64,000 nt of DNA. It comes from Pontibacter sp. Tf4. Lineage in GTDB: Bacteria > Bacteroidota > Bacteroidia > Cytophagales > Hymenobacteraceae. The stretch covers positions 62,001-126,000 of the forward strand of contig NZ_JACKZC010000002.1 of assembly GCF_014212495.1 (NCBI RefSeq). The letters run 5' to 3'. The notes under the pieces are model-generated. The model was not told where the DNA came from. It saw only the letters and a list, made by a program, of their open reading frames with translations, and made no database searches. Within the stretch, counting starts at the first letter, position 1; every line of letters starts with the position of its first letter. Positions 14,808 to 57,680 of this stretch are shown in pieces. Made by a program: the position numbers and the translations under genes.

Positions 14808-15745
14808 CCTCACCCCAGCCCTCTCCTAAAAACAGGAGAGGGAGATTGTTTGAATCAGGATTTACAGGATTAGGGGATTTACATGATTATGGAATTTTCA
14901 GGATTAGGGCTTTGGCTATAGTTTTATAGTTGCCCGTTTTTGCTGGCGCGGGTTTGTAACCCGTGCCTAACTATGGTGTTGAGTTTGTAACTCAACTGGC
15001 TCGTTAGAGACAGAAATGTCTGAACTGGGATTAATGGTGATGAGAGGATTTTCAGGATTCGTGCTTTTGCTATAATTCAGGCCATAGTTTCATATGTAAT
15101 GCTTTAACACCCCTGTAGTCCCCTCAAGGGGACAATCTCTGCCGTTACCCTTTCTCAAGCTATAGTTCTATAGGTACAGACCACGAACAGGGCAGGTTTA
15201 CCTGTCCCTACGGAACTACAACCACGAGAAAAACCGATCTGCTCAAGCTAAGAGCAAGTATAGACAACTATAGATATAGCTTAGCTATCGAAAGATCTCA
15301 GTCTTTGGGTTGAGCGCCTTGGCAGGTTCCGGTGCCGATAGGCAGCGCGACGTAGGAGCGCGGGAAGCTGGCACCGCGCGATGCCCGAAGACGGGGCCTC
15401 CCGGCCTCAGAGGGAGCCAGGCTAACTATAGAACTATAGGTAATTAGAGCTCCCAGGATTGGAAGATGCTATAGAACAACGACTCGTTTCAAGTTGCAAC
15501 TATAGTTAACTATAGCACCAGACGCTAGCAGGAGCTGCGCACACTGCTAGGTCATTACAAACTACAGGCTGAGATAGATTTCTCACTAAGTTCGAAATGA
15601 CAAAAGAGAGGAAATGAACTATAGGATACATAAGGTCACTCGGCTGCGCTCGACATGACAATTAGAGAAACTATAGCCAGAGCCAGGGTTACTGGTAAGC
15701 CTGTCCCTGCCGGGCCAGTTTAGTCAGGAGACTAAACACCATTGT
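14808..15745 (+). repeat. Composite intergenic repeat, copy A
   Basis: Gene-free region made of modules that recur at 29.2-29.9, 53.5-54.1 and 57.0-57.6 kb. In order: CAGGATT tracts near 14851-14910; short inverted repeats around 14814-14843 and 15118-15141; AGGTTTACCTGTCCCTACGG near 15202; the core 15284-15422 (TCTTTGGGTTGAGCGCCTT, later CGCGATGCCCGAAGACGGGG); AGCTCCCAGGATT near 15449; GAGATAGATTTCTCAC near 15571; a CTCGACATGAC end near 15648; AGGAGACTAAACACC near 15727. Between 14881 and 15840 I count 13 CTATAG hexamers. No ORF of note. Confidence 0.8.
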
Positions 15746-15845
15746 AAGTCACTAGCAGAATGCTCGCGCAGCATCCGATTGCACAAAAGCTAACTATAGA
15801 ACTATAGCATTCAACGGGAAAGGGGATAACTTACTAAAGAAAATA

Positions 15846-36026: not shown

Positions 36027-36458
36027 TTACTTAACGCGGGTCCAGTTCTGGGTTCTGCCGATCAGCGATATACCGATGTAGCCCTTCACTTCCATTTTGT
36101 CCTTGCCGGTCATCTTCATGTAGCAGGAATAGGTTTTGCCGCTTTCCGGATCGTAAATAGTGCCATCATCCCACTTGTTGTCGCCTTCGTACTCAAACCC
36201 CTTCATAAAATCCAGGCCAAGCAGCGGGCGGGTACGGAGTTTTTTGTCCGGGTTATTTTCATCCAGCTTTGGTTTTCCGTTTCTTAGCGGCTCTTTCAGG
36301 GTAATAATCTTACCGCAAAGCTTATCGCCACACTTGTAAATTTCGAAGCGGGCTTTACCTTCTTCGTTTGTCCAGACGCCAATCGGCGACAGGGATTGTG
36401 CCCATGCGTAGGTGCTTAGCAGCATGAGTACGGCCAGAGCGAGCAGGTTCTTTTTCAT
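36027..36458 (-). CDS. Secreted DUF2147 protein
   Basis: 143 residues with signal peptide (LLSTYAWA-QS). DUF2147 pattern: IGVWTNEEGKARFEIYKCGDKLCGKIITLKEPLRNGKPKLDENNPDKKLRTRPLLGLDFMKGFEY...WDDGTIYDPESGKTYSCYMKM and the C-terminal GYIGISLIGRTQNWTRV. A lipocalin-like periplasmic domain of unknown function, with one Cys pair. Single gene. Confidence 0.9.
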   Translation of the reverse strand: MKKNLLALAVLMLLSTYAWAQSLSPIGVWTNEEGKARFEIYKCGDKLCGKIITLKEPLRNGKPKLDENNPDKKLRTRPLLGLDFMKGFEYEGDNKWDDGTIYDPESGKTYSCYMKMTGKDKMEVKGYIGISLIGRTQNWTRVK

Positions 36459-36733
36459 GATCGGTTAGTTGTTTGTTAGATACTGATACTAAAAATAATA
36501 AAAAACTTTTGATTTAAAACACATAGCTGCAATGCAACTTATAGTTGGCTTTACTCAAATGCTGTGCCTGTTATGCTGCTACCGGCACCTACTATAAAAG
36601 AATACCAAACTATAGTTTGTTGTGTATCAGTGTATTGTAGGTGGTAAGTGCGGTTTATAGTTGTTTTAGGCGGTTTTGCTGCCTTTCCGGACAGATAAAA
36701 CAGTTTGGCAGAATTAAAAAAATAATAAAAACC

Positions 36734-36764
36734 TTGTGAACTTAATGCCGTTATTTTACCTTTA
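36734..36764 (+). promoter_or_regulatory. Bacteroidota-type promoter for the structured RNA
   Basis: TTG at 36734-36736 and TACCTTTA at 36757-36764, 20 bases apart; close to TTG-N19/20-TAnnTTTG. Start of transcription expected near 36770-36773. Confidence 0.65.
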
Positions 36765-36870
36765 ATAAGAAGTAAATGTAGCGAGTGCTACGGCTCTGGT
36801 CTGACCACCTTATTCAACATCTGGTCGAAGGTTCAGGGTTTATGTCGGACTATAGAGAAAGGAGGTACAA

Positions 36871-36942
36871 ATGTCTAATCCCAAACAAGTTTTAACGAGC
36901 CTAAGTAATTGCATTCACCTAAACAGTGAGTCGGCTTCGTAA
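36871..36942 (+). CDS. Possible 23-residue ORF inside the structured RNA
   Basis: ATG 36871 to TAA 36942 encodes a 23-residue Ser/Asn-rich peptide starting MSNPKQVLTSL. It has a perfect GGAGG five bases upstream, exceptional for this phylum. However, codons 6-10 form one arm of the 14-bp helix. It may be a leader peptide, an rRNA-binding decoy or chance. Confidence 0.3.
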   Translation: MSNPKQVLTSLSNCIHLNSESAS

Positions 36943-37041
36943 ACGGGATTTTTGCTGTTTGCACAGCTTAATATTACTCAAGGTCTTCGGATGGTAACCT
37001 GAACAACAGGAAGCCGCTTGTTAAGACTTTTTAGGATTCTG

Positions 37042-37088
37042 AAACACCTGGTGTAACTTGACGGGCTACATCAGGTGTTTTGCTTTTC
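37042..37088 (+). terminator. Rho-independent terminator of the structured RNA
   Basis: 14-bp stem AAACACCTGGTGTA / TACATCAGGTGTTT (one G-U), 11-base loop, then TTTTGCTTTT on the plus strand only. This sets the direction of the transcript. Confidence 0.8.
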
Positions 37089-37100
37089 AGCCGGCTATAG

Positions 37101-37472
37101 TTACAGATCATCTTTGTAAATCGTGTTGTTGCGCGTCCTGCGCTCCCGCAGAAAGTTGCCTATAAAAACCGCTACCGCTACTATACAACTCAGCCCCATC
37201 AGCAGTAACAGCAAATAGCGCGTATCCCAGCGCTCGCCGCCGGCATTTAACCTGAAAATTACAACTATAGCTGCCAGCAGCGTTAGCGCCGTAACCGTAT
37301 GGGTAACAAACTGGTTGTGTTTGCGCAAATGGTAAGTACAGGCCAGCAGCATAAGGCCAAGCCCGGGAGCTACCAGGGCTACCGGAGGCTGTTGCGGGTG
37401 TATAAAGTAAACCGTAAGCCCGGCAACTATAAGTATTAGCGCATTTACAGAATTGATGACGTAGGAGTGCAT
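37101..37472 (-). CDS. Small multi-pass membrane protein of unknown function
   Basis: 123 residues with four predicted membrane helices (about 8-24, 30-47, 57-72, 84-103) and a basic C-terminus RERRTRNNTIYKDDL. No family recognised; typical of uncharacterised Bacteroidota inner-membrane proteins. Confidence 0.6.
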   Translation of the reverse strand: MHSYVINSVNALILIVAGLTVYFIHPQQPPVALVAPGLGLMLLACTYHLRKHNQFVTHTVTALTLLAAIVVIFRLNAGGERWDTRYLLLLLMGLSCIVAVAVFIGNFLRERRTRNNTIYKDDL

Positions 37473-56984: not shown

Positions 56985-57625
56985 ATCCTGTTCGTAACTT
57001 AGTGCAGTGTTTAGTCTCCTGATTAAGCTATCCCGACAAGGATAGGTTTACCAAGAACGCTGGCTATAGTTTGTTAAGCTATAGTTATTTCTTTGTCATG
57101 TCGAGCGCAGTCGAGACATCTTATGGATCCAATAATCCATATTTGTCATTTCGAGTGTAGCGAGAAATCTATCTCAGACTATAGTTCAATAAGCTATAGT
57201 TCTATAGTTGCCTTTGCCTACTGCTGGGAACAAGCCGTTGTACTATAGTTTCCTCTAATCCTGGGAGCTCTAATCACCCATCGTTTTATAGTTTGTTTGG
57301 CTCCCTCCTGGGCCCGGATGCCCCGTCTTCGGGCATCGCGCGGTGTACATTCCCTTTGCTCGTACCTCGCAATGCCTTTCGGCACCGGAAATCTACAAGG
57401 CGCTCAACCCAAAGACTGAGATCAATTCGATAGCTAGGCTATTGCTATAGTTTCTGTACTTGCTCTTGGGTAGAGCAGATCGGTTTTACTCGTGACTATA
57501 GTTCCGAAGGGACAGGTAAACCTGTCCTGTTCACAGGCTGTAACTATAGAACTATAGTTTAGGGATGGCAAATTCAGAGTTCCCCTCCTTAGATAAGGAG
57601 GGGCAGGGGTGGTTGGACCAACCGC
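56985..57625 (-). repeat. Composite intergenic repeat, copy E (inverted)
   Basis: Reverse-orientation copy. GTGTTTAGTCTCCTGATT near 57008 (also in copy A); CATGTCGAGCGCAGTCGAGACA 57099-57120; GTCATTTCGAGTGTAGCGAG 57144-57163; CCTGGGAGCTC near 57260; core 57299-57434 (GATGCCCCGTCTTCGGGCAT, GGCGCTCAACCCAAAGACTG); GGTAAACCTGTCC near 57516; CCCTCCTTAGATAAGGAGGG near 57580. The core is closer to copy D than to A or B by eye. Confidence 0.8.
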
Positions 57626-57680
57626 AACTATAGAACAATAGCTGAAACTATAGCTTATGCCAAATCCCGCTTAAAACAAA

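Follow-up and report, generated by a model that had tools for sequence, protein, structure and literature searches.

A conserved structured RNA of Bacteroidia that joins an extended Shine-Dalgarno sequence to a short reading frame, a candidate reader of the 16S rRNA 3' tail

The tmRNA is a stable, folded molecule that encloses a short reading frame, SgrS and RNAIII are dual-function small RNAs that act in trans and also hold a short ORF, and in leader-peptide attenuators a short ORF overlaps a helix that translation would open. In Bacteroidia the 16S tail (nt 1532-1544 as used in PMC9976891) is held by bS21, bS18 and bS6, which leaves the anti-Shine-Dalgarno (anti-SD) sequence hidden. According to the same paper, ribosomes of F. 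johnsoniae without bS21 favour rpsU via an extended Shine-Dalgarno (SD) sequence, and the criteria for an extended-SD rpsU are predicted to apply to about 20% of Cytophagales, mainly Cyclobacteriaceae (PMC9976891). Bacteroidia keep the anti-SD yet rarely use it, and the use that this paper presents as well supported is rpsU autoregulation (PMC9976891). The OLE RNA is a structured RNA linked to bS21 and to SD/anti-SD pairing (PMC12054373).

The RNA considered here lies in a 64,000-nucleotide stretch of contig C12 in the genome of Pontibacter sp. Tf4 (G000), called the window below. It shares with tmRNA the combination of a structured RNA and a short reading frame but differs in having its own start codon behind an SD; ARAGORN finds 0 tRNA-like or tmRNA genes in the window, and the host tmRNA is located at G000 C3 104499-104869 (110.8 bits). 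SgrS and RNAIII are similar as trans-acting RNAs with a short ORF, whereas the most conserved element of the present RNA complements 16S rRNA. Like an attenuator it places an ORF over an openable helix, but no gene follows in the window for it to lead into. The likeness to the F. johnsoniae rpsU mRNA is a very long SD in a species with a sequestered anti-SD, a signal predicted in PMC9976891 to work best for bS21-less ribosomes; the present ORF, however, is not a bS21 gene and has 18-23 codons, and the present RNA is a structured stand-alone unit. An identity with rpsU mRNA was rejected on the ORF sequence and on the position of the host rpsU, which is found at another locus and lacks a strong SD. 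OLE RNA is the nearest idea, yet it is a different RNA: it carries an anti-SD mimic that binds bS21 (PMC12054373), whereas the present RNA carries the SD side together with an ORF and is half the size of OLE. A direct assignment to OLE found no Rfam match, OLE being assumed to be among the 4227 models.

That none of the known structured RNAs would fit had been noted in the first-pass annotation, and this held for the window and for its relatives. Rfam 15 gave 0 families at the gathering score both in the window and in ten relatives, and at E up to 5 the window yielded one chance-level match (snoR30, 36659-36740, E 3.1). When twelve additional loci were searched with E up to 0.5, nothing passed the gathering score except a separate cobalamin riboswitch (L237:1191-1417, 94.8 bits), which sits just downstream of the RNA in a genome of family f23. 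Sub-threshold overlaps at L233 were at chance level (BSnc120, 27.1 bits of 114; GcvB, 24.9 bits of 42). As it matches no Rfam 15 family, the class appears to be undescribed, and no report of the RNA was found in the open-licence papers of PubMed Central. The underlying principle, an extended SD used by free-tail ribosomes, is one that the RNA probably uses and that is already known from rpsU.

A genome search found a single copy in the host, on the plus strand of the window. The RNA gene would span 36770..37087 (about 310 nt), its ends being placed by a promoter and a terminator, both of which were found in the order and on the strand first proposed for them. The promoter-like pair is formed by TTG at 36734-36736 and, 20 nt further on, TACCTTTA at 36757-36764 on the plus strand, which we take to be the Bacteroidota-type TTG / TAnnTTTG promoter; the consensus TTGTGAACTT...TTTTAnCTTTA is kept in the alignment of the genus. 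The plus-strand terminator (37041..37087) has a stem at 37041-37055/37067-37081 and a T-rich end, and this stem covaries, with 98.9% of cells paired and double changes in 10 of its 15 pairs in 37 genus sequences. The terminator loop (37056-37066) is nearly constant, reading TGACGGG in 35/37 genus sequences, which is unusual for a terminator.

Two minus-strand genes flank the RNA, a DUF2147 gene upstream (36027-36458) and a convergent gene downstream (37101-37472) whose DUF6320 match lies under the cut-off; an NlpC/P60 gene comes next. At own-family loci these neighbours are largely constant (DUF2147 upstream and NlpC/P60 downstream, judged by position and length), while the 17 outside-family loci among the 28 compared have no downstream gene in common except among close relatives. 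Because the neighbours are not constant outside the family, the RNA most likely acts in trans, and since it leads into no gene, its output is likewise proposed to act in trans. The earlier suggestion of a leader peptide finds no support in the attenuator sense, and a cis-acting leader in general was rejected: what comes after the RNA in the window is a terminator and then a convergent gene, and the downstream genes vary outside the family across the 28 loci.

The pairing with the ribosome can be stated against the host's own 16S gene, whose 3' end reads ...GGATCACCTCCTTTCT, then AGAGG. At 36856-36866 the window carries AGAAAGGAGGT, an 11-nt exact complement of ACCTCCTTTCT. This extended SD, AGAAAGGAGGU, on the plus strand and 4 nt before the ATG at 36871, is thus the precise complement of the host 16S tail ACCUCCUUUCU that had been predicted from a general 16S end. 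Most of the genus carries AGAAAGGAGGTG, with 12-nt complementarity to the tail, and across 42 loci the element is near-invariant, the exceptions being AGAGAGG (L031), AGAAGGG (L037) and GGGGG (L038), each of them G-U compatible. The calculated pairing with the 12-nt tail is -17.8 kcal/mol, below the -13 kcal/mol criterion of extended-SD rpsU. It is also the best calculated pairing among the 13 sites in the host genome where AAAGGAGG precedes an ATG, the next reaching -16.5 kcal/mol; AAAGGAGG before ATG is not enriched in the host genome (13 sites vs 14 in the reversed control). The idea that the SD stands clearly open in predicted ensembles is weak, with an openness just above average in four sets covering 146 RNAs (0.42, 0.40, 0.58 and 0.42 vs 0.34, 0.37, 0.37 and 0.38).

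In the host, complementarity stops at the last base of the tail, and the next RNA base, a G, stands opposite an A in the 16S precursor. This boundary would suit a guide or chaperone that pairs with the tail during biogenesis and assists 16S 3'-end maturation or 30S assembly. Such a role needs no ORF, no start codon at SD spacing and no codon selection, and it appears quite improbable.

Support for the fold comes from comparison of homologues. Tested on its own, the minimum-energy fold (-95.1 kcal/mol, z -3.1) shows a moderate excess, as 1/100 shuffles was equally good. The structure was written down from the window sequence and tested on A1, an alignment of 37 genus sequences (A1 and A2 are plain MAFFT alignments; one genus-level data set leaves out the duplicate loci L040-L042, another leaves out L040-L042 together with L038 and L039). 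In A1 the whole structure has 92.5% of cells paired and 25/69 pairs changed on both sides, and its covariation score is 0.229 vs 0.154 for shuffled and 0.056-0.083 for slid controls. The best-supported helices in A1 are P1, P5, P6, P7 and the terminator stem; P8 is weak (76.6% of cells paired, 0 double changes), and P3 is split by the alignment and lacks double changes.

All elements lie on the plus strand. P1 is a hairpin (36778-36782/36787-36791, loop GAGU) with 100% of cells paired and double changes in 2/5 pairs (n=37). P2 (36794..36838), in alignments judged by eye and uncounted, has an outer stem at 36794-36798/36834-36838 around a variable inner hairpin. Inside P2 of relatives from several genera (e.g. 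L174, L078, L083) there recurs a small hairpin, one strand of which resembles CAUAAG or CCUAAG; this hairpin is absent from the P2 of the window and could be a tertiary-contact or protein-binding motif. Between P2 and the SD, the linker element UAUGU (36841..36845) holds an AUGU that is invariant in the 37 A1 sequences and is present in most, not all, family-level relatives. Further downstream, P5 (36904-36909/36973-36978; 95.3% of cells paired, 2/6 pairs with double changes), the hairpin P6 within the ORF (36913-36918/36926-36931; 97.7%, 1/6 pairs) and the hairpin P7 (36939-36946/36955-36962; 100%, 2/8 pairs) are followed by P9, made up of 36993-36995/37013-37015 and 36998-37001/37007-37010 (78.4% and 81.6% of cells paired, double changes in 2/3 and 2/4 pairs).

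The core of the fold is the long-range helix P4 with its neighbour P3, which together tie ORF codons 3-10 to the segment preceding the terminator. P4 (36887-36900/37016-37029, 14 bp) is exactly the helix reported in the first reading of the sequence; it pairs ORF codons ~6-10 with a segment a few bases 5' of GGAUU and the terminator, and 13/14 of its pairs show double changes (n=44). Homologues with compensatory changes had been set beforehand as a test of the proposal, and they were found in this helix. The adjoining second helix is present too, with 5 bp and not the 6 first given: P3 joins 36877-36881 to 37034-37038 (AAUCC/GGAUU), with 99.5% of cells paired and 0 double changes (n=44), and GGAUU follows the 3' segment of P4 in 39/39 loci. 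Taken alone in 44 diverse sequences, P3 and P4 have 93.1% of cells paired and a covariation of 0.291 vs 0.169 shuffled and <=0.132 slid; a smaller set (n=25) gives 0.198 vs 0.131 shuffled and <=0.092 slid, both alignments being fitted to a model that carries the same structure (R1 for the 44 sequences), and so leaning towards it. The pseudoknot formed by a crossing 7-bp helix, first given without coordinates, found no support: a covariation scan of A1 and a Hymenobacter-like alignment gave no well-supported crossing helix, and in one crossing candidate, at A1 columns 75-79/165-169, double changes affect a single pair, at a summed frequency of 0.08.

A second state of the fold can be suggested tentatively. 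GGUCUU (36982..36987, plus strand) may be an alternative partner of the 3' strand of P4, and in a test on 144 of the 147 distinct RNAs this pairing beats shuffled controls (p<=0.05) in 34/49 Hymenobacter-like RNAs, and in 11/45, 4/15 and 6/35 of the other sets, so that it is significant only in the Hymenobacter-like RNAs. No convincing covariation was seen for it within the genus.

The moderate z of -3.1 might be expected of an intergenic stretch without function whose folding and likeness to an SD are accidental. We nevertheless consider the fold not to be chance because of the covariation across homologues, although the shuffle test is only moderate; with the RNA in 79/79 sampled genomes of the family, compensatory changes and likely relatives in other orders, an artefact is hardly credible.

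The ORF MSNPKQVLTSLSNCIHLNSESAS (36871..36942, plus strand, 23 codons) qualifies the original description of this region as some 310 nt without a gene, which is not quite accurate because this reading frame is conserved. It is in frame in the 42/42 loci in which the SD was compared and in all 147 distinct RNAs, which derive from 189 loci chosen for having a suitable SD and an ORF 15-28 codons long; within that choice the length is 18-23 codons in 147/147. L268 and L270 stand outside the 147, as they do not conform to the ORF pattern. Codon tests were made on the commonest ORF length (34/45 Pontibacter-like, 49/49 Hymenobacter-like and 16/16 Rufibacter-like RNAs), in sets formed according to the peptide text, with one Marivirga MAG among the Pontibacter-like RNAs; Rufibacter is the label used for g25, and Hymenobacter-like is our own working label for g23 and g26. 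Among 28 distinct Hymenobacter-like ORFs the nonsynonymous/synonymous ratio is 0.33 in frame, the other frames giving 1.64 and 1.26, and the Ser codons TCG, TCC and AGT are exchanged for one another; the in-frame value for 6 distinct Rufibacter-like ORFs is 0.06. These ratios point to a peptide under purifying selection in two clades, Hymenobacter-like and Rufibacter-like. For 25 Pontibacter-like ORFs the ratio is 0.75 in frame vs 0.84 and 0.93, and the peptide there is therefore hardly constrained beyond the RNA. Across families it is barely recognisable, the common part being a start like MSSP or MSNP, and f23 deviates even there.

Codon-level selection in two clades and an ORF that always has 18-23 codons would be expected if the RNA were a small mRNA for a functional peptide of 18-23 aa, with a structured untranslated frame and no other role. 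The peptide diverges strongly between families, however, while the helix and the SD persist, and its selection is weak in the Pontibacter-like set, which makes this account rather improbable. Another possibility is that the RNA holds 30S subunits as a decoy: the 11-12 bp duplex would park free-tail subunits, the fold by the start codon would block entry and the ORF would rarely be translated. The SD is indeed very strong and near-invariant and P3 begins 3 nt beyond the AUG, but purifying selection on the peptide in the Hymenobacter-like and Rufibacter-like clades and the constant ORF length point to real translation. Parking of subunits by such a decoy is unlikely on balance.

Sequence comparison thus defines a well-supported RNA class by structure, SD, ORF and stand-alone unit, and its distribution is broad. 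A search at the DNA level through 59 genomes detected the RNA in 37/37 of the genus (host included) and the core only in 2/22 others. Covariance model R1 matched 87/390 genomes of the order, with one match each, namely 79/79 sampled genomes of the family (19 of the genus, host included, and 60 from five other genera), 6 of f5, 1 of f17 and 1 of f20; six candidates were scored per genome, and absence from a family is therefore unproven. An exact pattern was positive in 67/356 genomes against 0 matches of the reversed control, with 59/67 own-family genomes, 6/8 of f5, 1 of f17, 1 of f20 and 0 in the remaining families, and all 8 own-family genomes that it missed are R1-positive. In named genomes a pattern gives 52 loci, in Pontibacter, Rufibacter, Adhaeribacter, Nafulsella, Chryseolinea, Ohtaekwangia, Rhodocytophaga, Xanthocytophaga and others; 52/52 match R1 at the site (E<=5.6e-7) and 52/52 have an ORF of 18-23 codons.

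Outside the order, model R2 pointed to three likely relatives (G440, G764, G707) in 395 genomes of the class; this model is insensitive, matching 6/395 and missing G066, an R1 positive. Matches of an SD pattern read by eye added G494 and G727 as likely relatives. The broad SD pattern (54/395 genomes) matches about as often as its reversed version in a rough count and is not evidence by itself; of the 39 loci read, two places twice, those that are RNA-like are L250-L252, L268 and L270. The least certain relative is G440, with the SD AGAAAGGAGGG. A linker like GTTTCACTTAAAGAAAGGAGGT and an ORF of 19 codons are common to the four f23 members, and a P1-like hairpin is seen in the two f23 members whose long upstream sequence was examined.

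The comparison with rpsU is informative for the role of the RNA. In 70 genomes of the order, hand-picked for family spread and therefore non-random, a strong rpsU SD (below -13 kcal/mol, calculated with the host's 16S tail for all) was found upstream of rpsU in 0/25 RNA-bearing vs 17/45 RNA-lacking genomes (one-sided Fisher 1.4e-4, kinship ignored). The 17 come from f19 (11/13), f22 (4/4) and f11 (2/8), with 0/20 in the others. None of five additional genomes of the order with the RNA has a strong SD before rpsU (0/5), which brings the count to 0/30. In f23, RNA and strong rpsU SD occur together in 3/4 RNA-bearing genomes, and G440 is without a strong rpsU SD. A general replacement of the rpsU SD by the RNA was therefore rejected; simple substitution does not account for the pattern. 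We read the RNA and rpsU rather as two users of one free-tail signal. Each of the f23 genomes G707, G727 and G764 (L321, L327-L332) carries two or three genes of the bS21 type; a strong SD precedes the first of these in G727 and G764 and is missing from the extra copies, and specialised ribosomes are a possibility there.

The reading that we favour, with a probability of roughly one half, is a trans-acting structured RNA whose short ORF would serve to read the state of the 16S 3' tail. Replete ribosomes, with the tail held by bS21, bS18 and bS6, would make poor use of the RNA. Free-tail 30S subunits, either bS21-poor or immature, would pair with it over 11-12 bp and start on the ORF, and translation of the ORF would melt P3 and P4. 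The output could then lie in the RNA once opened, in the 30S bound to it or in the short peptide, in each case acting in trans. A sensor or sponge of free 16S tails, as suggested at the outset, fits the near-invariant SD, the published sequestration of the anti-SD and the distribution of rpsU types in the order. More tentatively, and short of even odds, this could be an undescribed Bacteroidia RNA class that reports or buffers the pool of free-tail 30S and is unlocked when bS21-poor ribosomes translate its minimal ORF, a trans-acting sensor of ribosome composition that would form a second, non-rpsU arm of free-anti-SD control. The RNA would then give the tail a further conserved partner in lineages without a strong rpsU SD, and why the anti-SD is kept becomes a testable question through it. 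Its profile as a class is that of a structured, stand-alone RNA with a short ORF and rRNA complementarity, present in several families.

One further feature of the window concerns the strongly over-represented palindrome CTATAG, which occurs 132 times in the 64 kb vs 13.9 expected from dinucleotide shuffles (maximum of 100 shuffles, 23). These sites are distributed over the whole window, both inside and between genes, for example at 15160-15807 and 57064-57653.
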